A stretch of DNA of 64,000 nt from Microthrixaceae bacterium (GTDB taxonomy: Bacteria > Actinomycetota > Acidimicrobiia > Acidimicrobiales > Acidimicrobilacustridaceae), in the NCBI GenBank assembly GCA_947446975.1, contig CANFHM010000002.1:40428-104427 (forward strand), read 5' to 3'. A program made the position numbers and the translations under genes. Numbering within the stretch: position 1 is the stretch's first letter; each line of letters begins with the position of its first letter. The notes under the pieces were generated by a model. The model made no database searches and was not told the DNA's origin. It saw only the letters and a list, made by a program, of their open reading frames with translations. This document shows, piece after piece, positions 1 to 51,357 of this stretch.

Positions 1-1318
1 GCACCAGCACGCACAGCACGGCCACCAACGAGGCCGTGCCCCAGCCCTGCAGCAGCCGGCGGTTCCGGGCCCGGGCCTCGGGGGAACCCGGGATGGGGTC
101 GCGTGCGCCGCGTGGGCGACGCAGTGGTCGCTCGATCAGGACGAAGGAGGCCGTGGTGGCTGCTGCGGTGACGACGACCCGCAGGAGGAACAGCGCCGGC
201 CCGTCGAGCCCGGTGCGCTGCTGATCGAGGAACACCAGCACTGGCCAGTGCCAGAGATAGAGCCCGTAGGAGACCTCGCCGAGTCGTCGCATCGGGGTGC
301 TCTCGAGGATGCGGTTGGTGATCGGGGAGCGGTGGCGGGCGAGCACCCAGATGAGTGCAGCGACGCCGATGGCGATGACCGTGAAGCCACCCCGGTAGAG
401 CCAGTCGCTGTGGAAATCAGCAAGGGCGATGGCCGCCACCAGCGCCAGCAGCAGAGCGACACCGGCGGCACGGGCACCGCGGTTCGACCCGGCGGTGCTC
501 GACCGGGGCAGCAGGTACCAGATGCAGGCGAGCGCGACGCCGATCAGGATCGTCTGCACCCTCGTGTCGGTGCCGAGGTACTCCCGTGACGGATCGGTGC
601 CCGGGGTGTGGATCACGATCATGGTGATGGCCGAGGCGACCGCTCCCGTCACGGCGACGATGAGGAGACCGATCGAGAGGCGATGCAGTTCCGGACGGCC
701 GAGTCCGCGCCGGCGGATGACCCCGACCACGGCGACGACCCCGAGCACGAGGAACGGGAACAGCAGATAGAACTGCTCCTCCACGGCCAGCGACCAGAAA
801 TGCGCCACCGGCGACTTCGGCCCGAACGACGAGGCATAGGACTGACCGTGACCGATCGTCCACCAGTTGGCGACATAGGTGATGGCCGACAGCGCCTCGC
901 CCCGGAGGGTGCCACGGGTGTAGTCGGGCTCGAGCACGAAGGCGATGGCCACGCTGACCACGACGGTGGCGAGCGCCGCCGGCAGCAGGCGGCGGATCCG
1001 GCGGTTCCAGAACCCGCTCAGCGAGAGCGTCGAAGTGGACTGGTGCTCGACGAGGATGAGCGAGGTGAGCAGGAATCCGCTGAGCACGAAGAAGACATCG
1101 ACCCCGAGGAAGCCGCCGGGAACCTGATCCGGAGCGAAGTGGAACAGCACCACGGCGGCCACGGCGAGACCCCGGAGACCGTCGAGGACCGGCAGATGCT
1201 CGAAGGTGCGTCGCCGGGAGGTCCGGTCGCGTCGACGGCGCTGCGAGCGGACGGTGTCGTCGGATGCGTCATCGGAGGAGGACGCGGAAGTCGACGTCCA
1301 TCGATCGCTCGCATCCAC
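1..1318 (-). CDS. acyltransferase 3 family membrane protein (OafA/YrhL-like), 3' end off window
   Basis: Not in ORF track because no stop lies in the window. Reverse strand from GTG 1318 reads VDASDRWTS...RTFEHLPVLDGLRGLAVAAVVLFHFAPDQVPGGFLGVDVFFVLSGFLLTSLILVEHQ...GFWNRRIRRLLPAALATV, classic acyltransferase-3 N-terminus. Confidence 0.9.
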   Translation of the reverse strand, partial: MDASDRWTSTSASSSDDASDDTVRSQRRRRDRTSRRRTFEHLPVLDGLRGLAVAAVVLFHFAPDQVPGGFLGVDVFFVLSGFLLTSLILVEHQSTSTLSLSGFWNRRIRRLLPAALATVVVSVAIAFVLEPDYTRGTLRGEALSAITYVANWWTIGHGQSYASSFGPKSPVAHFWSLAVEEQFYLLFPFLVLGVVAVVGVIRRRGLGRPELHRLSIGLLIVAVTGAVASAITMIVIHTPGTDPSREYLGTDTRVQTILIGVALACIWYLLPRSSTAGSNRGARAAGVALLLALVAAIALADFHSDWLYRGGFTVIAIGVAALIWVLARHRSPITNRILESTPMRRLGEVSYGLYLWHWPVLVFLDQQRTGLDGPALFLLRVVVTAAATTASFVLIERPLRRPRGARDPIPGSPEARARNRRLLQGWGTASLVAVLCVLV

Positions 1319-1324
1319 GGGGTC

Positions 1325-1330
1325 AAGGTA
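1325..1330 (-). promoter_or_regulatory. -10-like hexamer TACCTT (TGATACCTT), 6 nt before GTG 1318
   Basis: position consistent with leaderless start. Confidence 0.5.
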
Positions 1331-1376
1331 TCAGCGGCCCAGAACCCGCTGACATCGGCCCCAGCCGGGTGACCAG

Positions 1377-1382
1377 TACATT
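1377..1382 (+). promoter_or_regulatory. -10-like hexamer TACATT, 7 nt before GTG 1390
   Basis: position consistent with leaderless start. Confidence 0.5.
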
Positions 1383-1389
1383 TCGACGG

Positions 1390-3384
1390 GTGACGAGCGT
1401 GGGGGTGGGGGAGCAGCAGTCGACCGGCCCGACCCGTCTGCGCGGTCTCGACGGCCTGCGGGGCCTGGCGCTCATCCCGGTGCTGGTGTTCCATCTCTGG
1501 CCGGACTTCCTGCCCGGCGGACTCGTCGGTCTTCCCATCTTCTTCGCCCTCTCGGGCTTCGTCATCACCCGTGGTCTGCTCGGCGAGATCGCCAAGCACC
1601 GCACCGTCGATCTCCGGGCGTTCTTCGCCCGCCGGTTCCGTCGACTGTGGCCCGCCTCGACCGCCGTGCTGGCCGGCGTCACGGTGGTCTGGCTGGGATT
1701 CGTCTGGATGACCAGATCCATCGCCATCGACATCCTGGCGTCGTTCTTCGAGGTGGCGAACTGGCGCTTCCTGCTGACCGGCACCACCTACGGGGCCCAT
1801 GAGGGTTCGCCGGTCGCGCACTTCTGGTCGCTCGGCATCGAGGAGCAGGTGTACCTGGTCGTCCCGTTGGTCGTGTGGTTCCTGCGGCGACGTCCGCAGC
1901 TGCTCGCCGTGGCCTTCGCCCTGTTCATCGCCGGATCCTTCATGGTCACTCTGGCCAACGCCGGTGATGCCACGGTCATCTACTACTCGACCTTCACGCG
2001 ATCGGCTGAGTTCTTCATCGGTGCGCTCGTCGCCGTCGTCGTGGGATCCCGTTCCACCACCCTGCGCCACGATCTCCTCGGTCGTCTCACCGGGGTGGTC
2101 GGCTTCCTCGCCCTCGGATCGCTCGCGTGGCTGGCGTTCCGCAGCTCACTCGGTACCGAGGCCTACTACCGCGGTGGCCTCACGGGTCTGGCGGTGCTCG
2201 CCGCGCTCGTGATCATCGCCGCGATCTGGTCGCCATCGATGTTCCGGACGCTGTCGATCCGGCCGCTGGTCTGGATCGGCTCGATCTCCTACGGGGTGTA
2301 TCTCATCCACTGGCCGCTGCACATCGCCCTGCTCCACACGGGCCTTCCCACGTGGCTCCAGCCATGGTTGGTGCTCGCAGTGTCGTTCACGGTGGCACCG
2401 ATCTCGCTGCGGCTGTTCGAGGAGCCGATCCGGGTGCGTCGGATCACGCTGCGACGATTCGCACCGTGGGCCACGGCGCTCACCGTGGCCGTGCTGGTCG
2501 GCTCGATCTACGGCACGACCGTGCCCGCTCCCGCCTCCGAGATCGATTTCGCAGCAGCCCAGCGTCGTTTCGAGGCCGGAGCTGCCAAGGTGGCGCCGGT
2601 GGTGCCCGCCGACCCCACTGCCCCGAAGGGCACCGCCGCCAACCCGGTGTCGGTCGCCGTGTTCGGTGATTCCACGGCCGTGATGCTGGCCTCGTCGATC
2701 GGTGCCGGTGATCCGCGCATCCGGGATGCCGGCGGCTGGTCGAGGGTGTGGTGTCCGCTGGGGCGTGGGGGACTCGTCCGCGGGGATTCCGGCAGCGGCG
2801 ACAACCCCACGATGCCGTCGATGCCGGCGTTCGACTTCTGTGACTGGACGACGAACTGGCCCGATGCGGTGCGTGCCGCCGGTGGGGTCGATGTGGCGGT
2901 GGTGCTCACCGGCAACTGGGACGCCGCCGGTCGGAAGGTGCCGGCCCTCGGCGACGGCTATCACACGGTGGGCGAGCCGCTCTATGACGACTGGCTCCGC
3001 GGCGAGATCAGCGGGGCGGCCGATGCGCTGCATGAGGCCGGTGCTGCACATGTGGCCTGGCTCACCCTGCCGCCGAAGATCGATCGAGGGCCCAATCCTC
3101 GCTTCGAGCGCTACACGCAGCTGCTCGAGGAGGTGGCGGCCACCCGGCCGTGGATGACGATCGTCGACTACGCAGGACACATGGCGACGGAACCCGACAA
3201 TCGTCGGATGCGACCGGACGGCAGTCACCTCGACGAGAACGGCTCGGCCGAGCTCTGGAGGACCTGGCTCACCGAGGAGATCCTCGGCATCGGCACCTCT
3301 GCGGTGCCGACGTCGGCCGCAGCCATCCCGAACACCGGTGCCGCGGCCGGGGGCACACCATCGGGGCAGGGGACCCTCTCCTAG
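1390..3384 (+). CDS. acyltransferase 3 with C-terminal SGNH hydrolase-like domain
   Basis: RLRGLDGLRGLALIPVLVFHLWPDFLPGGLVGLPIFFALSGFVITRGL; C-terminal VAVFGDSTAVML and DGSHLDENG SGNH motifs. GTG 1390 preferred over ORF-track 1264. Confidence 0.92.
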   Translation: MTSVGVGEQQSTGPTRLRGLDGLRGLALIPVLVFHLWPDFLPGGLVGLPIFFALSGFVITRGLLGEIAKHRTVDLRAFFARRFRRLWPASTAVLAGVTVVWLGFVWMTRSIAIDILASFFEVANWRFLLTGTTYGAHEGSPVAHFWSLGIEEQVYLVVPLVVWFLRRRPQLLAVAFALFIAGSFMVTLANAGDATVIYYSTFTRSAEFFIGALVAVVVGSRSTTLRHDLLGRLTGVVGFLALGSLAWLAFRSSLGTEAYYRGGLTGLAVLAALVIIAAIWSPSMFRTLSIRPLVWIGSISYGVYLIHWPLHIALLHTGLPTWLQPWLVLAVSFTVAPISLRLFEEPIRVRRITLRRFAPWATALTVAVLVGSIYGTTVPAPASEIDFAAAQRRFEAGAAKVAPVVPADPTAPKGTAANPVSVAVFGDSTAVMLASSIGAGDPRIRDAGGWSRVWCPLGRGGLVRGDSGSGDNPTMPSMPAFDFCDWTTNWPDAVRAAGGVDVAVVLTGNWDAAGRKVPALGDGYHTVGEPLYDDWLRGEISGAADALHEAGAAHVAWLTLPPKIDRGPNPRFERYTQLLEEVAATRPWMTIVDYAGHMATEPDNRRMRPDGSHLDENGSAELWRTWLTEEILGIGTSAVPTSAAAIPNTGAAAGGTPSGQGTLS

Positions 3385-3387
3385 ACT
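3382..3387 (+). promoter_or_regulatory. -10-like hexamer TAGACT, 7 nt before ATG 3395
   Basis: TAG is also the stop codon of the upstream gene. Confidence 0.45.
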
Positions 3388-3394
3388 CTCGGCG

Positions 3395-4273
3395 ATGGCC
3401 CCACCGGTGACGTTCACCCTCGATTTCGAAGACCTCCGCACGTCGCCGACCCAGGAATCCCGCGTCGAGTACGCCACGTCGCTCGTCCTCGACCGGCTGG
3501 CCGAGAAGGACATCAGGGGCACGATCTTCTGCGTCGCCGACGTGGCGGCCCGGGAACCCCGCCTCATGCGCCGCATCACCGAACTGGGACATGAGGTCGC
3601 CGTGCACGGCTACCAGCACACGCCCATCGATCTGCTCGGCGAGACCCGCTTCCATGAGCAGACGATCCGCGCCAAGGAGATCCTGGAGGAGCTCACCGGT
3701 CAGGAGATCTCCGGGTTCCGTGCGCCGCAGTTCTCGATCATCCCGGAGACCAGCTGGGCCCTCGACGTGCTCGCCGACATCGGCTTCACCTACTCCTCGA
3801 GCATCCTCCCCGTGGCCACGCTCATGTACGGCTGGCCGGGCACACCCATGACCCCGTTCCGCTGGCCCCAGGGCCTCGTGGAGATCCCGTGTCCGGTGGT
3901 GTCCCTGCTCGGGATGCATATCCCCTACCTCGGCGGTGCCTACATGCGGGTGCTTCCCTCCTATGTCCGCCGTCGCGGGGTGCGCGACGCCCCCGAGGGT
4001 TCCGTGCTCTGGACCTACTGCCATCCATGGGAGTTCGACCCCGACGAGGAGTTCTACGTCTATGAGCACGGGGGCTGGCTCGTGAGCCGGATCGGCTGGA
4101 TCAACCGCGCCGGGATGCTCAAACGGGTCGAGCATTCGCTGCGCGACGCTGTCGGTCCGCCGCTGCGAGAGGTCGTGGCCTCGTTGACCGACCTCCCGGT
4201 GTTCGAGCCGGCGGCTGATCCCGGGCAGCGGGCGCCGCTGCAGGGTCGCCTGCGCCGTCGGGCCGACGTATGA
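3395..4273 (+). CDS. polysaccharide deacetylase family protein (DUF3473/XrtA-associated-like)
   Basis: MAPPVTFTLDFEDLRTSP...RGTIFCVADVAAREPRLMRRITELGHEVAVHGYQHTPI...SGFRAPQFSI; NodB-like fold motifs. Confidence 0.85.
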   Translation: MAPPVTFTLDFEDLRTSPTQESRVEYATSLVLDRLAEKDIRGTIFCVADVAAREPRLMRRITELGHEVAVHGYQHTPIDLLGETRFHEQTIRAKEILEELTGQEISGFRAPQFSIIPETSWALDVLADIGFTYSSSILPVATLMYGWPGTPMTPFRWPQGLVEIPCPVVSLLGMHIPYLGGAYMRVLPSYVRRRGVRDAPEGSVLWTYCHPWEFDPDEEFYVYEHGGWLVSRIGWINRAGMLKRVEHSLRDAVGPPLREVVASLTDLPVFEPAADPGQRAPLQGRLRRRADV

Positions 4274-5637
4274 CCGCTCGCCGACCCTCGCGCTTCGCGC
4301 TCCTGCTCGCCCTCATCTGTCTGCTCGGATTCGGGATCCGGATCGGGTTCATCATCGCCGAGCAGGACTCCAAGCTCGGCGGCGACGCGATCTACTACCA
4401 CAAGGCAGCCAACCTCCTCGCCGATGGCAAGGGGTTCATCGATCCGTTCCGGTACCTCTACGGCAGTGAGGAGACCATCACCCTCGCCGACGGACAGACC
4501 AGGACAGTCACCGTCCCGGTCGGACATGTCGAGCCCACCGCCGGTCATCCGCCGGTCTATGTGCTGTATCTCGCCGCATTCTCGAAGCTCGGCATGCGCT
4601 CGGCCACATCGCACAAGGTGGCGTCGGCGTTGCTGGGCGTCTGCGCCATCGTGCTGGCTGGTCTGCTCGGACGGGAACTGCGCAGCGAACGGCTGGGGCT
4701 CATCGCCGCATTCATCACCGCGGTGTACGCGAACGTCTGGGTCAACGACATCGTCCTGATGTCGGAGACCGCAGCGATCGTGATGGCCTTCGCCGCCACA
4801 TTGTTCGGGTTGCGGTTCTGGCGATCTCCGACGATGCGCAACGGGGTGTGGTTCGCGCTCGCCGGTGCACTCGCCGCCCTGTCGAGGGCCGAGCTGCTGC
4901 TGTTCATGCCCATCATCGGTGCGGTGGCGCTGCTTCGGTCGGGCATCCCCTGGACCCGCCGATTCACCACGTACGGCGTGATGGGTCTGGTGTGCATCGC
5001 TGCACTCGCCCCGTGGGTCATCCGGAACAATCTCGTGATGAAGGAGCATCTCACCCTGTCCGATGGGGCCGGCACCGTGCTCGTACAGGCCAACTGCGAC
5101 CTCACGTACTACGGCGACGAGCACGGTGATCACATCGGTGGGTGGTACCTGTACTGCGGCAGCCGCACGCAGCCCTACGGTCCCAACGGCGAACTGCTCG
5201 ATGAATCCCAGCGCGACAAGGTGGTGCGCGAACAGGCGCTCCAGTACATCCGCAGTCATACGACCCGACTCATCACCGTCGTGGTGCCGGCCCGGATCGG
5301 CCGGATGTGGGGCGTGTATCAGCCGATCGACCAGATGCGCACCGAGATCGTCGAGCGTCGACCCGCCGTGCCGGCCTGGATCGGCTTCTGGCAGTACGTG
5401 GTCCTGATGCCCTTCGTGCTGGCCGGTGTGGTCATCCAGTGGCGCCGTCGTGAGCCGGTGCTGGTCCTCGCCCTGTGGGCCGGCCTCGTCACCTTCACCG
5501 CCGCCACCACCTTCGGCAACATCCGCTATCGCACGGCGGCGGAGATCTCCATCGTGATGTTCTCGGCGATCGCCTTCGATGCGATCTGGGATGCCATCTC
5601 CCGACGCCGACGATCCTCCGACGGGGTCGTGGTGTGA
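4270..5637 (+). CDS. GT-C/GT39-like integral membrane glycosyltransferase
   Basis: multi-TM protein, N-terminal GDAIYYHKAANLLADGKGFIDPFRY; 4-bp overlap with upstream gene. Confidence 0.8.
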   Translation: MTARRPSRFALLLALICLLGFGIRIGFIIAEQDSKLGGDAIYYHKAANLLADGKGFIDPFRYLYGSEETITLADGQTRTVTVPVGHVEPTAGHPPVYVLYLAAFSKLGMRSATSHKVASALLGVCAIVLAGLLGRELRSERLGLIAAFITAVYANVWVNDIVLMSETAAIVMAFAATLFGLRFWRSPTMRNGVWFALAGALAALSRAELLLFMPIIGAVALLRSGIPWTRRFTTYGVMGLVCIAALAPWVIRNNLVMKEHLTLSDGAGTVLVQANCDLTYYGDEHGDHIGGWYLYCGSRTQPYGPNGELLDESQRDKVVREQALQYIRSHTTRLITVVVPARIGRMWGVYQPIDQMRTEIVERRPAVPAWIGFWQYVVLMPFVLAGVVIQWRRREPVLVLALWAGLVTFTAATTFGNIRYRTAAEISIVMFSAIAFDAIWDAISRRRRSSDGVVV

Positions 5638-6566
5638 GCTTCGGCGACGCAGAGCTCGCCCGCACCGCGGCACTCCTCAACGAGGTGTTCGGCCACGAGC
5701 ATCCGCTCACCGTGGACTCGCTCCGCTGGTACTACGAGGCCAACCCGGTGGGGCCGGCCGCTGTCGGCAACGTCGAGGACGGCGATCGGCGGCTCGGCAA
5801 CTATGCGCTCGTGCCCCAGCGGTTCGAGTCCGGCGACGGACGCAGTGCGGTGCTCGGCGTGGGCGTCGATCTCGCCGTCTCGCCATCGGCCCGCGGTGGC
5901 GGTGTGTTCCGGCGCACGGTCGAGGACTCCTACGCCCGCGCCATCGAACTCGGGCACGACGGGATCCTCGGGGTGGCCAACGCCAACTCGGCTCCCCGGA
6001 TGGTCTCGACCCTCGGCTGGCGAGCACTGGATCCGCTGCCTGTCACCCTGTGCTTCCCCGGCGCATCGGGCGGCGGGTTCACAGCTGCGGAGACGGACAC
6101 CGCGTACCTCGAGGGTCCTGCGCTCGACGAGATCGCCCCGCAGGGGTTCATCCGACCAGCTGCACCGGGCTTCGCGCCGCTGTGGACCCCGGAACTCCTG
6201 CGCTGGCGGCTGGCTCGCCCCGAGTTCCGGTACTGGGTGCATGTCGCACCGGACCTGGTGGTCATCTCCACCCGGACCCGCGTGGCCGGAACGCCCTTCG
6301 GCGTCGTGCTCAAGACCCTCGCCCGTCGCCCCATCACCCGACCGGTGTCGGGCCGACGCGTCGCCGCCACGGTGGCCCGGACCCATCGGACCCCGTTCGT
6401 GATCCATTGGGGTCGCACCCCATGGGTCCGGTACCGGGGCCTCCCGCTGCCGCAGTCACGGATGCCGTCGCCGCTGTCGCTGGTGCTCCATCGCCATCAC
6501 GATGGGTTCGTCGAACAGCACTTCGAACTGAGCGCGTTCGAGTTCCTCGACTTCGACGCCTACTGA
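5634..6566 (+). CDS. GNAT family N-acetyltransferase
   Basis: GTG 5634 overlaps upstream stop (GTGA); LAVSPSARGGGVFRRTVEDSYARAIELGHDGILGVANANSAPRMVSTLGW is GNAT-like. Confidence 0.75.
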   Translation: MSFGDAELARTAALLNEVFGHEHPLTVDSLRWYYEANPVGPAAVGNVEDGDRRLGNYALVPQRFESGDGRSAVLGVGVDLAVSPSARGGGVFRRTVEDSYARAIELGHDGILGVANANSAPRMVSTLGWRALDPLPVTLCFPGASGGGFTAAETDTAYLEGPALDEIAPQGFIRPAAPGFAPLWTPELLRWRLARPEFRYWVHVAPDLVVISTRTRVAGTPFGVVLKTLARRPITRPVSGRRVAATVARTHRTPFVIHWGRTPWVRYRGLPLPQSRMPSPLSLVLHRHHDGFVEQHFELSAFEFLDFDAY

Positions 6567-6640
6567 CCGGTCCGGTCCTGCCGTCGATGCGGTGGCGCCC
6601 AGCAGGCCGGGCGCTCCGGACGGGGTGGTCCACGGCGTCC

Positions 6641-6646
6641 TAGTCT
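6641..6646 (+). promoter_or_regulatory. -10-like hexamer TAGTCT, 8 nt before GTG 6655
   Basis: position consistent with leaderless start. Confidence 0.45.
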
Positions 6647-6654
6647 GCGCATCT

Positions 6655-8070
6655 GTGTCAGCCATCGTCCGCCCCGAACCGAGACCCATGGATCGGCGGC
6701 GCTTCTGGCTGATCCTCGGGCTCATCGTCATGGTGGCCTTCGGTGCCCGCCTGACCAACCTCGCCCTCACCCAGTGGGATCGTCCGCCCACCGGTGATGC
6801 CCTGTTCTATTCGGAGACGGCGACGCTGATGGCCGAGGGACATGGCTACATCGACCCGTTCCGCTACCTCGAGGGCTACCCGGACCGCACCGAGCGGCGC
6901 GAGCTCGAGCATTTCGGCCAGCAGATCACCGTCGAGCTGCCGCCGGGCCTCGAGCAGCCCACGATGTCGCATCCGCCCGCATGGACGGTCGTGCTCGCCG
7001 GTGCACGGTTCCTCGGCGTGGACACCCCGAACCAGCAGCGACTGCTCGGCGTGCTTCTCGGGGCCCTCGGTGTGGGTCTCATCGGGTTGGCGGGTCGCGA
7101 ACTCTTCGGCTCCTCCGAGGGACTCATCGCCGCGGCGATCGGTGCGATCTACGGCTTCCTGATCCTCAACGACGCCTCGTTGATGAGTGAGAGCCTCGTG
7201 GTGGTGTTCGTGCCGATCGCCACGATCGTCGCCGTCCGCTGGTGGCGTCGTCCGACCCTCCCGCTCGCCGTGCTCCTCGGGGTGCTGGCCGGCGTCGGGG
7301 GTCTGCTGCGGGCGGAGCTCATCATCTACACCCCGCTGGTGCTGCTCGGGGCCCTCGTCGTGCGGCGGTTCCCATGTCGGCGCACGCTCGGCCATGGGGC
7401 GCTCGCAGCACTGGTGATGGCGGTCGTGCTGGCGCCGTGGATCGCCCGCAACCTCACCGCCTTCGCCGAGCCGATGATCCTGAGCCAGACCGGCACGACC
7501 CTCGCCCAGACGAACTGTGACGCCACCTACTACGGCGACAAGCTCGGGTACTGGGAGCTCTACTGCGGCGGCATCGAGCCCGCCACCTCGGTCGATGCGA
7601 TCCCCGATGAATCACAGCGTGATGTCCTCCGACGCCACCAGGCGTTCGACTACATCTCCTCCCATCGCACCCGGTTCCTCACGGTCGCCGTGCCGGTGCG
7701 GGTGCTGCGGATGTTCAACCTCTTCGGCCCCATCCAGACCGCGAAGTACGACGTCGTCGTCGAGGGTCGCGATCTGAATGCCTCGCTGGTGTCGCTGGGG
7801 GAGTACTACGTGGTCGCAGTGCTCGCAGTGGTCGGGCTCGTGCTCGCCGTCCGCCGCCGCCTCACGCTCTATGTGGTGCTGCTGTGGCCGGCGCTCGTGG
7901 TGATGGTCGCGGTGCTGGGCTTCGGCAACAACCGTTACCGGGTGACCTGTGAACCGGCGTTGTTCTGGTTGGCGGCGCTGGCGCTCGTGTGGCTCTTCGG
8001 CCGGATCCGAGACGCAAGGCGCAGCAGCGATTCGGCCACCACACAGAACACGGCGATCAGCGTCAGCTGA
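6655..8070 (+). CDS. GT-C/GT39-like integral membrane glycosyltransferase (paralogue of 4270-5637)
   Basis: GDALFYSETATLMAEGHGYIDPFRYLEGY...TNCDATYYGDKLGYWELYCGG, aligns along its length to the 4270-5637 product. Confidence 0.8.
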   Translation: MSAIVRPEPRPMDRRRFWLILGLIVMVAFGARLTNLALTQWDRPPTGDALFYSETATLMAEGHGYIDPFRYLEGYPDRTERRELEHFGQQITVELPPGLEQPTMSHPPAWTVVLAGARFLGVDTPNQQRLLGVLLGALGVGLIGLAGRELFGSSEGLIAAAIGAIYGFLILNDASLMSESLVVVFVPIATIVAVRWWRRPTLPLAVLLGVLAGVGGLLRAELIIYTPLVLLGALVVRRFPCRRTLGHGALAALVMAVVLAPWIARNLTAFAEPMILSQTGTTLAQTNCDATYYGDKLGYWELYCGGIEPATSVDAIPDESQRDVLRRHQAFDYISSHRTRFLTVAVPVRVLRMFNLFGPIQTAKYDVVVEGRDLNASLVSLGEYYVVAVLAVVGLVLAVRRRLTLYVVLLWPALVVMVAVLGFGNNRYRVTCEPALFWLAALALVWLFGRIRDARRSSDSATTQNTAISVS

Positions 8071-11000
8071 GGGGCGAACATGAACCCGGACACCCACTCC
8101 ACTCCGGAGGGGATGTGCCGACGCAGCTGCAGCACGATGTAGAGCCCGACCACACCGACCATCGACAGCAGCGTCGCTGCCACCAGCACGGCACGGGCGC
8201 CGGGACGCGAGGCGGCGACCGCCGCGAGGACGGTGACGGCAGCCCCGACGGCGAACCCGCCGATGAATGCGGCGAGCGCACCACTGACGACGACGGCGCT
8301 GACGGTGGCGACCGTCGAGCCGCGTGCTGACCAGCGGAGGTGATCGGCGACCGGCTCGGGAGCATCGGAGACGGTGACGCTGTGCTCGCGTCGACGGGCT
8401 CGTCGAAGCTGCGACCAGCCGGCGACGAGGAGCAGGAGCATCAGCCAGAACGCCGAGATCAGCAGCGCCATCGTGACCGAGCTCTGGGGCTTCCATTCGA
8501 GGTCGATCACGACGGAGGATCCCACGACAGCGGGATCGATGACCCAGCCGTTGGCGAACCCATCGATGAGCGTGGGTGCGCCGAGCGAGGCGCCGCCACG
8601 GAGACGGGCGGTCCATCCATCGGAGAGGGACTGACCGAGGACGAGGAAGTAGGGGGTGAGGCCATCGGTGCTCGTGACCCGGTAGGAGAGCCTCCCGGTG
8701 GGGTCGGACTCGATGATCGGCAGCGAGGAGGACGCAGCTGCTGTTGGGCCGGCGCTCGCCGGGATCGTGCTGCCGGGCACCACTGAGCGAAGGGAGGTCT
8801 GGTCGATGTCGATCCCGGTGTCGAGTCCGTTGGTGGAACTGAAGGTGTGGTCACCGGTGTCGAGAGCGAGGACGCCGTCGCCGCAGGGCACGGCCTCGAG
8901 GGGCTGTCGGGCGAGGGCGTCGGCGGTGCTGCCGACGATGCGGACGGGTACATCGCCGCCATCGACCGACATGATCCCCGAGCGGCAGATCGATGGGAGC
9001 TGCGCGGGCACAGGGCCGACGACATGGGGCAGGCCGAGTTCGGCGATCGCGATCGGGAGCGCATGGGGACGGGCCGTGAAGGGGTCCTTGGTGTCGACGT
9101 ACCGCTCGGCGGCGATGGCGACGTCGAGGGATGTCGCGGTGAAGGGCTCGACTGGGATGTCGACCGTGGCGATTGTTCCGGGTTCGGCTGAGTCGGAGAT
9201 CGCCGGCACATCGACCAGATGCACGGAACCGTCATCGGCGGTGAGGCGCAGCGAGGTCGGGATCGAGTGGCGACCATCGGCGATCACGCTGAGCCGGAGG
9301 TGATCGATGGGCGTGGGCGAGGGTTGGTGGATGGTGAAGCTGCTGCCGATCTGGGGGCCGAAGGGCGTGACCCATGCGGTCGCGAGGTCGCCGTCGAGGG
9401 CGCTGGAGGGTCGGGCGCCGAGGTCGCCGAAGAGATAGAGGTCGCCGTCGACGGCGGCGTATCCCTGGTCGGTCCCGGGACGACCGATGAAGGCATCGAT
9501 CCGTTGCGACGGGGCGGTGCCCGAGACGCGGGCCGTCGAACGCAGCAGATAGCCCGAGGCACGAGGCGAGGTGAAGATGCGGGCGATGTGGAGTTCGGGA
9601 TCCTGTCGGTACCCCTCGAGCGGATTGGCCCGGAGCCTCGTGAACAGGAAACTGACTGGACTCGTGGGGCTGCCGAACGTTGCGACACCTGCGGAGGGGA
9701 CACGGATCCACTCGGTGGCTGTCACCCCCGGCACGGTGACCTCCTTGAATCCCACATCGGACACACCCGAGAAGGACACGAGATGGGTGACGCTCGCGTC
9801 ATCGATGCGCAACGAGAGTGTGCTGAAGGTGCGCATGCCGCCGAGGTCGATGCGCTGTCCCGGCGTCACGAAGGAGGAGTCGTCGAGGCGGACGGTGGTG
9901 TCCACGGCGCCGTCGAGCAGGACGCTGAGCCGGGTGATGAAGCGATTGCCCTGGAGCTGGGCGACGTCGATGTGATCGGCGGTGATGGGATGTCGGTAGT
10001 CGATGCGGAGGTAGTCGCCGACGACCTCCTTGGAGTCGCCCACGATCCAGGCGGTGCGCGGATCACCGTCGATGGCGTTGGCCGGACGGGCGCCGATCGA
10101 ATAGGCCCCGTCGACCCCGTAGCGGGTGGCGCGGATGTCGGCGACATCGGGGCCGTACTCGGCCACGGAGTGGAAGGAGTCATCCGTTCCCGGGAAGGTG
10201 GCGAGTCTGGTGTCGCGGGGATCGACCCTCAGCGGGACCGACCCAGCTGCCTCGGTGGCGCCGGTGTTCTCCCGGGTGGTTCCCCAGCGCGAACCCTGAC
10301 GACGGTTCGTGTCGGTGATCAGCAGCGATGGCTGTCCGGCGCGCAGGAACGGCAGCAGCGTCGGATGCGTGTCGATCGTCGAGGCGTAGACGATGGCTCC
10401 GCTGGTGTCGAGCAGACCTGCTCCGGCGGCGTTGACGAGTCCGGAGCCGTCACCCCAGACGAGCAGGGACCCGGCCGTGGGTTCGGCCCTGACCATCGAG
10501 CGGGCCCCCGACACCGGGTACAGCGCGAGCGGAGGGTTGGGAGAGGCGGTCGTGGAACGGGCGAGTTCGTACTCGTCGACGGTCGGTTGCCGGGGATCGG
10601 GGAGGAACGGTGTGGGATGGCCGAAGGTGCGCGGAGCGGCGAGACCGAGCGCCGGGAGTCCCTTGTCGCCCCCGAACTGCGCCCACAGATCAGCGGGTCG
10701 AGGGGCGTGGTAGCGCTCGTACTGGGTGTCCATGCGCAGCAGCACATCCGAGGCGCCGAGCAGTCTGGCGATCGGCGCCACCGAGCCGGGCTGGAACACG
10801 CTCTCCTGGATGGGGGTGTCGAGCGCCCGGATGAGATCGACCCCCGGCGGGGTGCCGTACGCCGTCAGTTCACGACCGACCCATGGACGGTCGGTGATGC
10901 CGGGAGTGATGGGATCCTGGGTCAGGCCCCAGCGATAGGCGTAGAAATCGGTGCCGGGGAGTTCGAGCACCCGCGAACCATCGGTGGTGGCATCGATGGC

Positions 11001-12428
11001 CTTCGCGGCGTCGGTCCAGTACTGGGGGAGCGGATCGGGGAACTGGAGATCGGACTGGATGAGGCCACCCGTCCAGAGCGGGGGGAGGGCGAGAGCCGCG
11101 ATCAGGATCAGCGCCGCGGCGAGCACTGGTCCGACCTGTGAGCGACGGGGCTGCGGCAGTCGGGCGGCGATGGCCGTGGTGGCGGGTCCGACGGCGGCGG
11201 CGAGGAGCGCCGCCAGTCCGAGCACGAGCAGTGGGAGGGCCCGCGACGAGTTGCGCAGGGCGAGGCCAGCTGCGGTCTTCGTGGTCTCCTTGATGATCGA
11301 TCCGAACGGGGTGGGATCGTCGTAGGGGTAGGTGCCGAGTCCGGCGACGAGTCCGACCACGATGAGCACGAGGAAATAGGCGCGATAGCGCCAGCGCACG
11401 AGCATCGCGCCGAGCAGCCCGAGCGTGGGGAGGATGAACCCGACGACGAACATCAGCACGTTCTGCGTGTAGAGCGTGCTCGAACCCGTCCACTGCGACA
11501 GACCGTCGCGTCCGTAGAAGTACCAGTACCCGAGTCCGCGCAGCAGTTCGGATCCGGTGGAGGTCTCGGCGACGGTCTTCACCGTCTCGGTCAGCTGCAG
11601 GATCGGGAGCCCGAACCGGCCCTGGACGCTGAGGCCGGCGACCCACCACAGCTGGGCGGGGATGGTGGCCACGCCCACCCGGACCACGGTGCGCAGGGCG
11701 TCGCGCAGACGGACCTCATGGGTCACCCAGATCATGTACGGCACGAGCAGCGCCGGTGCCACCAGCACGAACACCACGGAACTGGCGTTGGTGCCCGACA
11801 TCACCGTGATGATGAGGGCGATGAGGACCGGGGCCCTCCAGGTGCGTTCCTTCAGCGCCACGAACAGCAGGCCGATGATCCACGGGAGCGCCGACCAGGG
11901 CTGCAGGATGACCGAGGTGCGACCGAAGTAGGCGAGGATGTACGGGCTCAGCATGTAGACGAAGCCGCCCACCGCCACGCCCGGGCCTCGCAGGCCGAGG
12001 CGGCGCAGCATCCAGACCGTGCCGTACCCGGCGGCGAACAGGATGGTGCCGAACATGAGGCGCTCGGCGATCCATGTGGGCACCCCGACGAATCGCATCA
12101 GCCAGTAGTAGGGACCGAGCGGGAACATGTAGCCGATGTTCTGGTGGACGACGGTGCCGCCGTTGACATGGGTGTTCCACATGAGCCAGGCACGGTCGAG
12201 CAGTCGTCCCGGATCGAGGTACAGGTAGGCCTTGGTGTCCGCCGAGATCCGGCCCGGTGATGACAGCAGCAGCGGGATGTACGCGACAGCTGCGAGGGTC
12301 AGGCCCAGCCAGCATCGACGGGCCCACCGGACGGTCCGCATGAGGCCTCCGTTGTCGTGATGGGTCGGGGATCCCGTTCCGGAGGGGGAGCCGTCCGCGT
12401 CGGCCGTCGATGGGTCGGTGGTGGTCAT
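7935..12428 (-). CDS. aftD: alpha-(1->3)-arabinofuranosyltransferase AftD-like (DUF3367) with discoidin/CBM-like domains
   Basis: SSPGRISADTKAYLYLDPGRLLDRAWLMWNTHVNGGTVVHQNIGYMFPLGPYYWLMRFVGVPTWIAERL matches the AftD N-terminal signature; two NAIDGDPRTAW / SALDGDLATAW F5/8C-like modules. ATG 12428 preferred over TTG 12488. Confidence 0.8.
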   Translation of the reverse strand: MTTTDPSTADADGSPSGTGSPTHHDNGGLMRTVRWARRCWLGLTLAAVAYIPLLLSSPGRISADTKAYLYLDPGRLLDRAWLMWNTHVNGGTVVHQNIGYMFPLGPYYWLMRFVGVPTWIAERLMFGTILFAAGYGTVWMLRRLGLRGPGVAVGGFVYMLSPYILAYFGRTSVILQPWSALPWIIGLLFVALKERTWRAPVLIALIITVMSGTNASSVVFVLVAPALLVPYMIWVTHEVRLRDALRTVVRVGVATIPAQLWWVAGLSVQGRFGLPILQLTETVKTVAETSTGSELLRGLGYWYFYGRDGLSQWTGSSTLYTQNVLMFVVGFILPTLGLLGAMLVRWRYRAYFLVLIVVGLVAGLGTYPYDDPTPFGSIIKETTKTAAGLALRNSSRALPLLVLGLAALLAAAVGPATTAIAARLPQPRRSQVGPVLAAALILIAALALPPLWTGGLIQSDLQFPDPLPQYWTDAAKAIDATTDGSRVLELPGTDFYAYRWGLTQDPITPGITDRPWVGRELTAYGTPPGVDLIRALDTPIQESVFQPGSVAPIARLLGASDVLLRMDTQYERYHAPRPADLWAQFGGDKGLPALGLAAPRTFGHPTPFLPDPRQPTVDEYELARSTTASPNPPLALYPVSGARSMVRAEPTAGSLLVWGDGSGLVNAAGAGLLDTSGAIVYASTIDTHPTLLPFLRAGQPSLLITDTNRRQGSRWGTTRENTGATEAAGSVPLRVDPRDTRLATFPGTDDSFHSVAEYGPDVADIRATRYGVDGAYSIGARPANAIDGDPRTAWIVGDSKEVVGDYLRIDYRHPITADHIDVAQLQGNRFITRLSVLLDGAVDTTVRLDDSSFVTPGQRIDLGGMRTFSTLSLRIDDASVTHLVSFSGVSDVGFKEVTVPGVTATEWIRVPSAGVATFGSPTSPVSFLFTRLRANPLEGYRQDPELHIARIFTSPRASGYLLRSTARVSGTAPSQRIDAFIGRPGTDQGYAAVDGDLYLFGDLGARPSSALDGDLATAWVTPFGPQIGSSFTIHQPSPTPIDHLRLSVIADGRHSIPTSLRLTADDGSVHLVDVPAISDSAEPGTIATVDIPVEPFTATSLDVAIAAERYVDTKDPFTARPHALPIAIAELGLPHVVGPVPAQLPSICRSGIMSVDGGDVPVRIVGSTADALARQPLEAVPCGDGVLALDTGDHTFSSTNGLDTGIDIDQTSLRSVVPGSTIPASAGPTAAASSSLPIIESDPTGRLSYRVTSTDGLTPYFLVLGQSLSDGWTARLRGGASLGAPTLIDGFANGWVIDPAVVGSSVVIDLEWKPQSSVTMALLISAFWLMLLLLVAGWSQLRRARRREHSVTVSDAPEPVADHLRWSARGSTVATVSAVVVSGALAAFIGGFAVGAAVTVLAAVAASRPGARAVLVAATLLSMVGVVGLYIVLQLRRHIPSGVEWVSGFMFAPQLTLIAVFCVVAESLLRLASRIRPKSHTSASAANQNNAGSQVTR

Positions 12429-12484
12429 GCGGCTCGCGGAGTTCCTAACGGAGGTGATCCGCGACGGGGCGGATCGAAGGGGAT

Positions 12485-14440
12485 TCAACGTGGACAGGCG
12501 CCGTGCGGATCATCGAAGTTGGCGGCGGATCTCCAGTCGCCATCTTTCCATGGCGACGATGCGGGCGGGGAGAGTCCCAGCTCCACCGAGGCGTCCAGGA
12601 TCGCCTGCGCCAGTCGGGCAGCACCCTCCTGGCACAGATGCCAGCCCTCGGGTTTGCGCAGCAGGACGGTGTGCCCCGAGTCGTCCACATAACTGCGTCC
12701 GTAGGTTCCATCGGGGAGCATGAGTGATCCGGTGACATCGGGGGCGTAGACCACGCCGGGATGGAGCGCCGGGAGTGATGCGATGAGTTCGTCGACCTTG
12801 TGGTCGTCGACGGTCTTCCAGACATGGGTGCCGCCGGGCAGCATCGGGAGCCAGAGGATCTTCGCTCCGCGGGCCGAGAGGATGTCGACGGCCTCACCGA
12901 TGAGCCCGAGATAGGCGGCATCACCGTTCTCGTAGATGTATCGCATGTCCCATCCGCCGAGCATGACCACCACGATCTGGGGGTCGACCCGGTCGATGAG
13001 ACCCTTCCAGTCCTCGCGCCAGGCGAGGGGGAGGCTCAGGCCCACACCGGGGCCGGCGGCTCGTTCGATATGGCCGGTGCCCGCCGCATGGAAGGCCGCC
13101 TCGAGAGCGACCTGCTCATCGACCATGCCGGAATCCCCGAGCACCACGACTGCTCGCGGCGCCCCGGCCGCCGGGGTCTGGTCGGGGACGCCCTGGCCGG
13201 AGAATGCGCTGGTGTCGCCGATGGTGACATCGGCGAACGCCAGCTTCCCGGCCGGGGGACTGAGCGTGAGCACGACCGCCAGCAGGATGGTGCAGAGGGC
13301 GAACGAGACTCCGGCGGTGAGCGCCGATCGACCGGTGGTGAACATGCGCCCCCGACGAACCGGCATCTCGAGCAGGCGGTACGAAAGGAGTGCGATGGCG
13401 ATGGTGACGACCATCCGAAGGCCGAACAGCGGCCACGGGGACCAGCCGATCCGCTTCCGGTCGAGCACCAGGAACACCGGCCAGTGGTAGAGGTACAGGC
13501 CGTACGAGATGAGCCCGGCCCATCGCAGCACCCGGTTCGAGAGCAGTGCGGTGACCACACCTCTTCTCGTGCCGGCGTAGATGATCACAGCGGTGCACAG
13601 TGCGTAGAGCGGGAACCCTCCTCGTGCCAGCCACTGGGAGGTCTCGCTCACCCGGTACCAGGCGAAGAACATGGCCCCGAGCGCGAGGAGCCCGACGAGG
13701 TCCACCGCCGCCGAGCGTGATGTGGTGTCGGAGCGGAGTCCGTCGTCCGACGCCGATCTGCGTCCCGACCACCAGATCGCCAGCAGGACACCGATGAGGA
13801 GCTCCGCGGCACGGGTGTCGGTGCCGTAGTACACACGGTCGGGCCCGTGGCGCAGCAGGATGCAGAGCCCGACCGAGCAGACCGTCGCGATCGCGACGAC
13901 CGAGGCGAGCAGGCGACGACCCCCGAAGCGCGTCAGCACGATGACGATCGGCGGGAAGAACAGGTAGAACTGCTCCTCGATGGCGAGACTCCAGAAATGC
14001 TGCAGGGGACTCGGCGCTGCGAACAGCGAGCCGTAGCTCGTGCCGGCGAAGTGGAAGCGCCAGTTGGCGACGTAACCGAGGGCCCCCAGCATGTCGAGAC
14101 GCAGGTTCTGCACCTGTTCGGGGGTGCCGAGCCGCCAGAACACGACTCCAGTGATGGCGATCGTGACCACGGCGGCGGGGAGGAGTCGGCGGAACCGTCG
14201 GGTCCAGAACCCGCCGAGTCGGATCGAGCCTGCGGTGTCCCATTCGCGCACCAGCAGGTTCGTGATGAGGAAACCCGACAGCGTGAAGAAGGTCGAGACG
14301 CCGAGGTACCCGCCCTTGGCCCAGTCGAACCCGGAGTGGAACAACAGCACGCCGATGACGGCGAGACCGCGGAGTCCGTCGAGCGCGGGAAGATGCGGCA
14401 TCCGATGACGCTCGGCGGTGGTCGCAGCGGGCTCGAGCAC
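12485..14440 (-). CDS. acyltransferase 3 with C-terminal SGNH-like domain
   Basis: MPHLPALDGLRGLAVIGVLLFHSGFDWAKGGYLGVSTFFTLSGFLITNLL; C-terminal VVVLGDSGMVDEQ. GTG 14440 chosen because TGGTACCGT lies 6 nt upstream (ORF track uses 14473). Confidence 0.9.
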   Translation of the reverse strand: MLEPAATTAERHRMPHLPALDGLRGLAVIGVLLFHSGFDWAKGGYLGVSTFFTLSGFLITNLLVREWDTAGSIRLGGFWTRRFRRLLPAAVVTIAITGVVFWRLGTPEQVQNLRLDMLGALGYVANWRFHFAGTSYGSLFAAPSPLQHFWSLAIEEQFYLFFPPIVIVLTRFGGRRLLASVVAIATVCSVGLCILLRHGPDRVYYGTDTRAAELLIGVLLAIWWSGRRSASDDGLRSDTTSRSAAVDLVGLLALGAMFFAWYRVSETSQWLARGGFPLYALCTAVIIYAGTRRGVVTALLSNRVLRWAGLISYGLYLYHWPVFLVLDRKRIGWSPWPLFGLRMVVTIAIALLSYRLLEMPVRRGRMFTTGRSALTAGVSFALCTILLAVVLTLSPPAGKLAFADVTIGDTSAFSGQGVPDQTPAAGAPRAVVVLGDSGMVDEQVALEAAFHAAGTGHIERAAGPGVGLSLPLAWREDWKGLIDRVDPQIVVVMLGGWDMRYIYENGDAAYLGLIGEAVDILSARGAKILWLPMLPGGTHVWKTVDDHKVDELIASLPALHPGVVYAPDVTGSLMLPDGTYGRSYVDDSGHTVLLRKPEGWHLCQEGAARLAQAILDASVELGLSPPASSPWKDGDWRSAANFDDPHGACPR

Positions 14441-14446
14441 GGCCCG

Positions 14447-14452
14447 ACGGTA
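14447..14452 (-). promoter_or_regulatory. -10-like hexamer TACCGT (TGGTACCGT), 6 nt before GTG 14440
   Basis: extended -10 form. Confidence 0.45.
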
Positions 14453-14520
14453 CCAGTGGGCGTTCGGGGCCACGGGTCACGCCCTCCTGCAGGCAGGACA
14501 CGCCCACCGAGGGCGCAACG

Positions 14521-18325: not shown

Positions 18326-20710
18326 TCAGATGTAATCGTGGCGATGCATCCACTGCATGGCCACCCAGCCCCACGCCGGTGGGAGGTAGGCCGTGAACAT
18401 GCGGGCGGTGAACGTGGCCGCCACCGCCGCCTGATCAGGAACGCCCGCCGCGGTGAACCCGGCGATCAGGCCGGCCTCGATCACGCCCATGCCGCCGGGC
18501 ACCGGAGCGATCCCGCCGATGACCGAGGCGATCGAGTTGATCACGATCAGCTGCATGAGCCCGAGGGACTGTCCGTAGGCATGCAGGGCGGCCCAGAGCA
18601 CGAGGGCGTAGCAGACCTGTGCGATGAAGTTCCCGGCGAACAGCTGCACCGCCTTGCGCGGCTCGGAGACGACGGACGCGAAGTTCGACCGTGCGGCCGC
18701 CAGATGGGGTCCGACGAGCGTGGTGAGACGATGCCGGAACTTCGGGATGGCCAGCAGGATGAGGCCGATCACGATGACTGCGCCGAGTGCGATCGCCAGC
18801 TTCTCGGTGAGGTCTCCCGATCCGCTGCCGTGGTGGAGGTGGAAGGTGGTGTCGCCGAGCAGCAGACCCAGCGAGACGACGACGACCTGCACGATCCCCG
18901 AGGAGAACGAGGTCATCAGGCTCGAGCTGACCGCGACCGCCGGTGAGAGTCCCTGCTTCTGGAAGAACCGGACGGTCATGGCCATGGTGGCCACACCGCC
19001 GCCGACGAGCCCGGTGAACTTGTCGGCGAACTGCAGGATCAGCACCGGACGCATCGGCAGGGGCCGACTCACCGCTCCCAGCAGCGCCATCGCGGTGCCG
19101 AGCAGCGGCAGCTGGGCGATGAGCACCACTGCTGCGACCCACACCCACTTCGCATCGTTGAACGTGGTGGCGAAGTCGATCTTCGTGAACTGTCCGACGA
19201 GGAGGTAGAACCCGAGGAGTGTGGCCGCGGAGAGCAGGATGTTCGCCGGCGAGACCCGGCGCAGTTCCGTGAGCTTCGGCGGAGTGGAACCGGTGGTGGT
19301 GGCGGCGGCATCGCGGAGCTGCTGCACGATCTTCTTGGGCGAGTCGATCCCTCGCCGGGTGGGGCGGGGGAGGGCGGCCACCTCGAGCAGCGGCTGGAGG
19401 GCGATGAGCCCGGGGTCGCCGAGGGCGGAGGTGGCACTGGCCACCGCCCGTTCCGCCGAGGTGAGTGCTCCAAGGGTGACGAGCATCGAGACCTGGTCGA
19501 GGAGGAGTGCGTCGTCGGAGGGTCGTCCGTCGGCATCGGCGAGATCGGTGAACGACACGACGCCGGTGGTGTCGAGCAGGAGACGATCGGCGCCGATCGC
19601 CCCGTGCGCCACGCCGATCGCGTGCAAGGAGGCCAGTGAACCCCATGCCGAGGCGAGGACGGAGTCGTCGAGCTCGGCGGCTGTGAGTTCGGTGAGCCGG
19701 CGACCGACACGGTCGCGCATCACGAGCACGACATCGCCGCGGTCGCCGACGAGGCCGCTGTCGATCACCGTCGGCGTCGGCACCGACCCTCGTTCGGCCA
19801 GCATGAGCAGATAGGCGCGATGCTCGATCTGCTGCTCGCGTGTGGCGGCCACCGTCGGCCCGGAGTCCTTCATCCACACGAAGCGGATCACCTTGGCCAG
19901 GAACTGGGCGTTGGTGGCATCCCGGCCGATGACCGCGACGCGGATCGGGCCGGTGTCGTCGTTGCCGAGGAAGGCGTTCTCACCCCAGCTCTGGTCGGGA
20001 GCGGCGGCGAGGTCGGTGACGCTGATGCCCAGCGAGGCCAGATCGGAGCGCACGGCGTCCGGGGACGGGGCACCATCGGGTGAGCCGAGGATGAGATGGA
20101 CGACGGCGGCGAGGAACCAGGCCAGCCCGAGGGCGCCGGCCACGCCGGTGGGATAGCCGTAGGTCACCGAGGCGAGGCTGATGGAGATCAGCACCAGCAG
20201 GAACATGGCCATCCGACGCGCCGGTCTCGTGAGTTCCGGACTGGCGACGAAGAAGATGGCGGCCACGGTCGACAGTCGGAGGTTCGGATACACCGGGTAG
20301 TGCCCGACGGACTGTCCCACCGCGGCGGGTGCGTCGATCAGCGCATCGAGGGCTCGTCCGGCGGCCCATGTGAGCGCGAACACGAGCAGGACGCCGCCGA
20401 TGAACCGGGGTCGGCGGGCCAGCAGGGCGGCGATGACGATCAACCCGATCGCGGCGATCGCACCGGTGGTGTTGAGCCAGCGCAACGAGGTGGTGAGCGG
20501 CGAGGGCAGTGCGACGACGAGATCGTGCACCGATCGTTCGAAGGAGGACACGCGTCGCGCCGTGATCGTGCCGAGCCCGAGGAGCAGCAGGCCCACGAAC
20601 ATCCTGATGATCTCGGTGGGGCGACGATGCAGTCCCTTGTCGGGGACCACGCCGAACAGGCTCGTCCAGGAGGATCGGACCCGCTGGCGACGGGTGCGCG
20701 TCGTGGTCAT
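18326..20710 (-). CDS. lysylphosphatidylglycerol synthase TM domain/flippase-like protein fused to PAP2-like and kinase-like regions
   Basis: C-terminal APVPGGMGVIEAGLIAGFTAAGVP signature of the LPG_synthase_TM (TIGR00374) family; central kinase-like region SLHAIGVAHGAIGADRLLLDTTGVVSFTDLADA. ATG 20710 preferred over 20890. Confidence 0.8.
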   Translation of the reverse strand: MTTTRTRRQRVRSSWTSLFGVVPDKGLHRRPTEIIRMFVGLLLLGLGTITARRVSSFERSVHDLVVALPSPLTTSLRWLNTTGAIAAIGLIVIAALLARRPRFIGGVLLVFALTWAAGRALDALIDAPAAVGQSVGHYPVYPNLRLSTVAAIFFVASPELTRPARRMAMFLLVLISISLASVTYGYPTGVAGALGLAWFLAAVVHLILGSPDGAPSPDAVRSDLASLGISVTDLAAAPDQSWGENAFLGNDDTGPIRVAVIGRDATNAQFLAKVIRFVWMKDSGPTVAATREQQIEHRAYLLMLAERGSVPTPTVIDSGLVGDRGDVVLVMRDRVGRRLTELTAAELDDSVLASAWGSLASLHAIGVAHGAIGADRLLLDTTGVVSFTDLADADGRPSDDALLLDQVSMLVTLGALTSAERAVASATSALGDPGLIALQPLLEVAALPRPTRRGIDSPKKIVQQLRDAAATTTGSTPPKLTELRRVSPANILLSAATLLGFYLLVGQFTKIDFATTFNDAKWVWVAAVVLIAQLPLLGTAMALLGAVSRPLPMRPVLILQFADKFTGLVGGGVATMAMTVRFFQKQGLSPAVAVSSSLMTSFSSGIVQVVVVSLGLLLGDTTFHLHHGSGSGDLTEKLAIALGAVIVIGLILLAIPKFRHRLTTLVGPHLAAARSNFASVVSEPRKAVQLFAGNFIAQVCYALVLWAALHAYGQSLGLMQLIVINSIASVIGGIAPVPGGMGVIEAGLIAGFTAAGVPDQAAVAATFTARMFTAYLPPAWGWVAMQWMHRHDYI

Positions 20711-20717
20711 CGGCCGA

Positions 20718-21710
20718 TCATCGGATGGTCGCCGCCGCGAACGCCCGCATCTCTCGCTCCACATCAGGCCCGGCCGGCGTGTAGAGCAGCTCGGTGACCC
20801 CACGTTGCGCCGATGCCGCAGCGCGACGAGCGATCTCGTCGGCGTCGCCCACCCAACCGGCGGCGAGGATCGCGTCGTCGGGTGCGACATCGAGGATCAC
20901 GCGGTCGCGGGTGCTCACATCGGTGACATGACCCTCGTGCACGATCAGATGACGTTCCCCCTCGGGGCGATCCGCCTCCACCCCGGCGAGCCATTCGGTG
21001 CCGGCGGGCATCCCGGGAAGGACCTCCGGGAACTGCTGCCACACGTAGTGGTGTCCGACGACGAACCAGGGTCCGACGGCATCGCGCACCCGGGCGCTCG
21101 AGCCGTCCTCGCCGCGATCCAGCACCGTGCCCGACACCATCTGGACGCGCCGCCCGAAGGGTCCGTCGGCGCCCTCGGTGTCGATGAGTCCGTCGATGGT
21201 TCCGGCGGCGACCATCTCCGCCGTGATCGCCAGCCCCTTGGGTCCGAGCGCCGACATGAGCAGCGGCGTGGAGATCGGCCTCGGTGCGGCCAGATGCGGA
21301 AGATGGATCATCTGGGCCCGGGCTCCGGCCACGGTGACGGTCTCTCCCTGCAGCAGGCCATGGAGCTGTTCGACGTAGGTGCGCAGTGTGGCCCAGGAGA
21401 GTGCTGATTTCCCGAGGACCCACCGGGCGGTGAGGCCGGTGCCGAAAGCAGCGGTGAGACGACCCGGCGCCATGCGTTCGAGCGTGGCGATCGCCGAGGC
21501 CGTGGTCATGACATGGCGGAGGTTCGGCACCAGCACGGCGGTGCCGACGTCGATGGAGGTGTTGGCGACGATGGCCGTGAGGTGCATCCAGATGTCCTCG
21601 TAGATGGCCGCCGAGTCGTAGAGCCAGACCCGGGCGAAGCCGAGCTCCTCGGCGAGCTGCGCTCGTCGAACTGCATCCGGACCGGGAACGACGCCGATTG
21701 AGATCTCCAT
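20718..21710 (-). CDS. LLM class F420-dependent oxidoreductase
   Basis: MEISIGVVPGPDAVRRAQLAEELGFARVWLYDSAAIYEDIWMHLTAIVANTSIDVGTAVLVPNLRHVMTTASAIATLERMAPGRL; ORF track over-extends to 22520. Confidence 0.88.
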   Translation of the reverse strand: MEISIGVVPGPDAVRRAQLAEELGFARVWLYDSAAIYEDIWMHLTAIVANTSIDVGTAVLVPNLRHVMTTASAIATLERMAPGRLTAAFGTGLTARWVLGKSALSWATLRTYVEQLHGLLQGETVTVAGARAQMIHLPHLAAPRPISTPLLMSALGPKGLAITAEMVAAGTIDGLIDTEGADGPFGRRVQMVSGTVLDRGEDGSSARVRDAVGPWFVVGHHYVWQQFPEVLPGMPAGTEWLAGVEADRPEGERHLIVHEGHVTDVSTRDRVILDVAPDDAILAAGWVGDADEIARRAAASAQRGVTELLYTPAGPDVEREMRAFAAATIR

Positions 21711-51297: not shown

Positions 51298-51303
51298 CCG
51301 GCC

Positions 51304-51309
51304 AATCTA
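51304..51309 (-). promoter_or_regulatory. -10-like hexamer TAGATT, 6 nt before ATG 51297
   Basis: position consistent with leaderless start. Confidence 0.5.
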
Positions 51310-51345
51310 GCGACGGGTCGCCGATCGGCTCGGGGTCGGCTGCCA

Positions 51346-51351
51346 TACGAT
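51346..51351 (+). promoter_or_regulatory. -10-like hexamer TACGAT, 6 nt before GTG 51358
   Basis: position consistent with leaderless start. Confidence 0.5.
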
Positions 51352-51357
51352 CCAAGG

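Follow-up and report, generated by a model that had tools for sequence, protein, structure and literature searches.

Most of what is known about how arabinan is built and decorated with acyl groups comes from mycobacteria and related bacteria. SucT succinylates mycobacterial arabinan (PMC10503756), and AT3-SGNH proteins as a group carry acyl groups over the membrane to extracytoplasmic envelope sugars, which become O-acylated; the same group includes peptidoglycan acetyltransferases (PMC9558356). We analyzed a 64,000-nucleotide stretch of genomic DNA (the window) from a freshwater actinobacterium of the Acidimicrobiales, in which eight adjoining genes at positions 1–14473 combine enzymes of these kinds. 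There is good support for a role of this locus in the assembly and acyl decoration of an envelope glycan, centered on an AftD-type enzyme. Its chemistry is drawn from known families (AftD and SucT-like AT3-SGNH); the combination and the host range are new.

Genes were called from open frames and codon-position GC and then compared with Pfam and NCBIfam. All eight had family matches, with that of the GNAT just under its cut-off. Their order is AT3a (minus strand); AT3b, deacetylase, GTC1, GNAT, and GTC2 (all plus strand); and the AftD-like gene and AT3c (both minus strand). The family matches confirmed the set of eight glycan genes listed in the first-pass annotation (three AT3 genes, a deacetylase, a GNAT, two GT-Cs, and an AftD-like gene), with corrections for the SGNH fusion of every AT3, the truncation of AT3a, a further AT3 gene upstream, and the frame of the GNAT gene. 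The plus-strand genes are closely packed head to tail, neighbors overlapping or being separated by about 25 bp at most, and this operon and the minus-strand AT3c-AftD pair are separate transcription units. GTC2 and the AftD-like gene face each other tail to tail, their 3' ends overlapping by 136 nt (7935–8070). This overlap was also found in the orthologous loci L037, L038, and L113 with both stops in place and was shortened in L033–L035 by earlier AftD stops.

The AftD-like gene (7935–12488, minus strand) encodes a GT-C glycosyltransferase of 1517 aa. Its PF11847 (GT-C_AftD) match reached 282 bits against a cut-off of 26 and covered profile positions 6–651 of 661, corresponding to the GT-C domain, and a CBM_AftD match of 23.2 bits was below the 27-bit cut-off. 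The topology consists of the N-terminal GT-C domain followed by a long extracytoplasmic loop containing the CBM, with an estimated seven N-terminal and four C-terminal transmembrane (TM) segments, and the protein could be aligned with the mycobacterial AftD structures 6wbx and 6w98. In the alignment, D84 was kept in 96% of the 51 window-type rows and in 15/18 canonical rows, and E301 in every one of the 69 rows, of which 51 are window-type and 18 canonical; further polar residues were also conserved. GT-C(A) enzymes carry an essential aspartate in a given region (PMC12041299), to which the position of D84, judged from the alignment, appears to correspond, and we regard D84 and E301 as candidate catalytic residues. 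In the tree, a 57-row window-type clade and a 12-row canonical AftD clade each received 100 SH-aLRT, and the AftD-like protein grouped apart from canonical AftD, including the second copy of its own host genome, which encodes one window-type and one canonical enzyme (490 bits; L134, G000:C36). The canonical gene adjoins a GT4 gene and a sulfotransferase gene, which suggests a separate, perhaps sulfated, glycan. One other genome carries four PF11847 genes of three clades within 45 kb (G005:C13:274–318 kb).

The three AT3-SGNH acyltransferases of the window, AT3a, AT3b, and AT3c, gave Acyl_transf_3 scores of 112, 102, and 105 bits, respectively (Pfam cut-off 31). AT3a (1–1318, minus strand) crosses the window edge, which cuts off its 3' part; the full gene in the contig encodes 730 aa (L133:13554–15746), and the full-length protein contains the SGNH domain PF19040. 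AT3b (AT3 plus DUF459/SGNH; 1264–3384, plus strand) probably starts downstream of its ORF start at 1264, because that ORF overlaps AT3a head to head. AT3c (12485–14473, minus strand; DUF459, 52 bits) lies directly upstream of the AftD-like gene and overlaps it by 4 nt, and this adjacency is kept in L033–L035, L037, L038, and L113. A fourth gene, AT3d (771 aa), was found directly upstream, outside the window. The AT3 domain is fused to SGNH/DUF459 in these proteins, with the DUF459 match of AT3d being weak (21 bits, below the cut-off of 27.2). GDS and D/E-G-x-H motifs were present in all four (GDS and DGVH in AT3d), and R-x10-H in three, its spacing being shifted in AT3d. AT3a carries R-x10-H, GDS, and DGxH; AT3c keeps GDS and has EGWH instead of the usual DGxH. 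SucT was the best NCBIfam match of all four, at 84–138 bits against an equivalog cut-off of 1275. When AT3c was used to query the collection, numerous staphylococcal AT3 proteins (about 35% identity) also came up, and a search against PDB sequences returned no match.

The deacetylase (3395–4273, plus strand) matched DUF3473 (83 bits) and Polysacc_deac_1 (57 bits) in Pfam and TIGR03006 at 193 bits, below the cut-off of 276. It carries DFED and HGYQH motifs resembling a metal site. Neither the deacetylase nor the GNAT has TM segments, and the former is probably cytoplasmic. An exosortase (PF09721) was searched for in the host genome and not found. The GNAT-type N-acyltransferase (5631–6566, plus strand) scored 24.3 bits for Acetyltransf_9 against a cut-off of 25, and a low-confidence structural model matched the Eis-like tandem GNAT fold; its orthologues are 58–75% identical within the genus and 38% identical in G005. 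A high-GC ORF at 5579–6643 was considered for the GNAT and rejected as a shadow frame; the gene lies in the stop-to-stop frame 5475–6566 and starts at about 5631. GTC1 (4270–5637, plus strand), a GT-C glycosyltransferase of the kind that depends on polyprenyl-phosphosugars, and GTC2 (6592–8070, plus strand), a second GT-C glycosyltransferase, had PMT_2 scores of 40 and 32 bits, respectively (Pfam cut-off 26). An AF2 model of GTC1 (pLDDT 86) gave generic GT-C fold matches (STT3, ArnT, and PMT) that point to no specific donor. Orthologues of GTC2 occur in L033–L035, L037, L038, and L113. GTC1, GTC2, and the GNAT had no match among PDB sequences.

We then examined how widely the locus is conserved. 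The plus-strand operon, the AftD-like gene, and AT3c share about 70–80% identity with those of the near relatives L034 and L035, where the available sequence stops within AT3b (in L033 it stops past the GNAT), and AT3c-AftD-GTC2 is kept in L037, L038, and L113. Flanking metabolic genes unrelated to glycans are likewise collinear within the genus, and genus-level synteny was therefore dropped as functional proof; the order-wide test is the stronger one. Of the genomes searched, 53/99 in the order and 35/37 in the family carry the AftD-like gene; in a phylum-wide sample (E ≤ 1e-60) it was present in 33/397 genomes, of which 22 belong to the order and 1 more to the class, the other 10 giving distant matches elsewhere. 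About 8 kb around 20 divergent AftD-like genes of the order was searched by tblastn with window queries and compared with 16 random regions of the same number of bases, picked by hand from some of these genomes. AT3 homologues turned up in 14/20 loci vs 0/16 random regions (p = 1.3e-5), and GT-C homologues in 12/20 vs 0/16 (p = 1.7e-4). In an independent Pfam tally of 109 neighbors and 109 random proteins, AT3 was the commonest neighbor, followed by GT2, GT4, methyltransferases, and PMT_2; no member of this list was among the 25 commonest families of the random set. The deacetylase-GNAT-GT-C cluster also recurs next to an AftD-like gene in G005. The arrangement is neither strain-specific nor due to chance, and it recurs across the order. 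Restriction of the block to this strain, which the first-pass annotation had named as a refutation of its reading, was not borne out.

Next, the donor pathway was sought in the host genome. DprE2, DPPR synthase, and DprE1 are encoded in one operon (contig C11, L142:6957–10078), which is unlinked to the envelope locus. Because all three pass the NCBIfam equivalog cut-offs, the host very likely synthesizes the arabinofuranose donor decaprenyl-phospho-arabinose (DPA). DprE1 was present in 35/37 genomes of the family and above the cut-off in 41/99 of the order, and all 22 good-quality family genomes contain both the AftD-like gene and DprE1. In the order-level search, two family members, G053 and G095, combined the DPA genes with PF11847 proteins of the window type only. 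Over the order as a whole, the association is loose: 33 genomes have both, 20 AftD only, 17 DPPR synthase only, and 29 neither. Co-occurrence of DPPR synthase with window-type AftD gave an odds ratio of 2.8 (p = 0.016; 99 genomes, uncorrected for relatedness). Genomes with and without DPA genes were mixed on the AftD tree (16 changes vs 19.2 when shuffled), and families f35, f40, f45, and f54, each sampled by two genomes, one of them a single contig, carry the AftD-like gene but neither DPPR synthase nor DprE1. Since the clade persists in these four families, the donor of the window-type AftD is uncertain, and co-occurrence with DPA was dropped as proof of it. A cultured Acidimicrobiia strain, a different organism, was reported to contain rhamnose, ribose, mannose, and galactose and no arabinose (PMC12263773), and our literature search found nothing direct on arabinan or cell-wall arabinose in Acidimicrobiia. 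Arabinose is the best single guess for the sugar added by AftD here, and the arabinan label proposed in the first-pass annotation is about evenly balanced, with the complete donor operon and family-wide DprE1 on one side and the same AftD clade in order members without DPA on the other.

Taking these data together, we consider it fairly probable that the locus directs the building of an AftD-type envelope glycan outside the cytoplasm as well as its O-acylation, a glycan for which arabinofuranose is the leading but unproven sugar. We infer the substrates, the order of steps, and the sugar and acyl identities as follows. On the cytoplasmic side, the deacetylase would probably act on a lipid-linked intermediate, stripping one of its amino sugars of an N-acetyl group, after which the GNAT would attach another acyl group to that sugar. 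Outside the membrane, GTC1 and GTC2 would add sugars from polyprenyl-phosphate donors, and the AftD-like GT-C would extend or branch the chain, which its CBM loop may hold, as judged from AftD. The AT3-SGNH proteins, three in the window and the fourth upstream, would bring acyl groups across the membrane for O-acylation of the chain; of these, AT3c, with its gene overlapping that of the AftD-like enzyme, is the foremost candidate for modifying the product of that enzyme. Within this family, the AftD-like enzyme most likely draws on decaprenyl-phosphoryl-arabinofuranose, which would give an arabinofuranose-containing polymer that is not of the mycobacterial type.

The strongest competitor, to which we assign an appreciable but less than even probability, is that the AftD-like clade uses another polyprenyl-phosphate sugar such as a hexose, that the locus makes an acylated polysaccharide other than arabinan, and that DPA serves the canonical AftD on C36 or other enzymes. 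The full separation of the two AftD clades, the scatter of DPA genes over the tree, the four DPA-less families, and the canonical copy in the host, which could itself be the DPA user, are consistent with this possibility; the 22 family genomes with both genes, the retained AftD hallmark residues, and G053 and G095, with DPA genes and only window-type PF11847 proteins in the order-level search, argue against it. A more far-reaching reading, less likely than not, is that a deep sister clade of AftD, independent of DPA and common in Acidimicrobiia, builds a hitherto undescribed acylated envelope polysaccharide with dedicated, physically linked AT3-SGNH enzymes.

It is rather unlikely that the genes are mere neighbors, with the AT3s acylating peptidoglycan or other surface sugars in the manner of OatA and the deacetylase-GNAT-GT-C operon making an unrelated glycan or glycolipid. 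The known peptidoglycan acetyltransferases among AT3-SGNH proteins, the staphylococcal matches of AT3c, and the two transcription units would fit such a division, but the 4-nt overlap and kept adjacency of AT3c and AftD, the recurrence of AT3 and GT-C genes beside AftD-like genes in divergent genera, and the second deacetylase-GNAT-GT-C cluster in G005 speak against it. A mycobacterial-type arabinogalactan or lipoarabinomannan (LAM) pathway is very improbable, even with an AftD family enzyme, a DPA operon, and SucT-related AT3s in the genome. Emb (PF04602) was absent from the host genome and represented by one weak fragment among 99 genomes of the order, and UDP-galactopyranose mutase Glf (PF03275) was also absent from the host, which makes mycobacterial arabinogalactan unlikely, although single absences are not proof because the metagenome-assembled genome is 89% complete. 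In a search covering PimE as an example of the PI-mannan core enzymes, the LAM-like polymer suggested initially found no support: the GT87 of the window scored 125 bits, far below the PimE cut-off of 413. Under the preferred reading of an acylated AftD-type glycan, the recurring AftD-AT3 linkage and the presence of DprE1 in 41/99 genomes suggest that the use of DPA-type glycans goes back further and extends more widely, to organisms outside the mycolic-acid bacteria, and the genomes with an AftD-like gene and no DPA pathway raise the testable question of which sugar the clade transfers.

Other features of the window were also noted. The GT4 (63.3 kb), GT87 (41.7 kb), and LCP genes that had been associated with the block are real; however, they are 27–50 kb distant from it, and we found nothing to link them with it. 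The LCP (LytR_CpsA_Psr) domain protein (50626–52386) is a possible glycan-to-peptidoglycan ligase. At 18326–20890, an 854-aa protein has an MprF-like flippase domain (LPG_synthase_TM) at its C terminus only, with no family match for the preceding about 550 residues; it is conserved in L033–L036 and L038.

Finally, we compared the locus with the described systems. Like mycobacterial and corynebacterial AftD (PF11847; 6w98, 6wbx, and 6wby), the AftD-like protein has a GT-C domain, a long CBM-type loop, four C-terminal TM helices, and the core Asp and Glu. Unlike these enzymes, it falls in a separate clade, scores only 145 bits (phmmer) against the solved AftDs, is encoded by a gene overlapping an AT3-SGNH gene, has no Emb partners, and belongs to a clade that also occurs without DPA synthesis. 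The AT3s share with SucT (Rv1565c, MSMEG_3187), which succinylates the arabinan of arabinogalactan and LAM, the AT3 domain and, as proposed here, an AftD-dependent glycan as acceptor; by contrast, their low-scoring SucT matches cover the AT3 half only, and four paralogues lie beside the AftD-like gene. The deacetylase resembles the XrtA-associated EPS deacetylase (TIGR03006) in joining a deacetylase domain to DUF3473 but differs in its sub-threshold score and in a host genome in which no exosortase was found. The DPA enzymes correspond to DprE1-DprE2-Rv3806c, with all three genes adjoining on contig C11, whereas the envelope locus that may draw on their product lies on a different contig.
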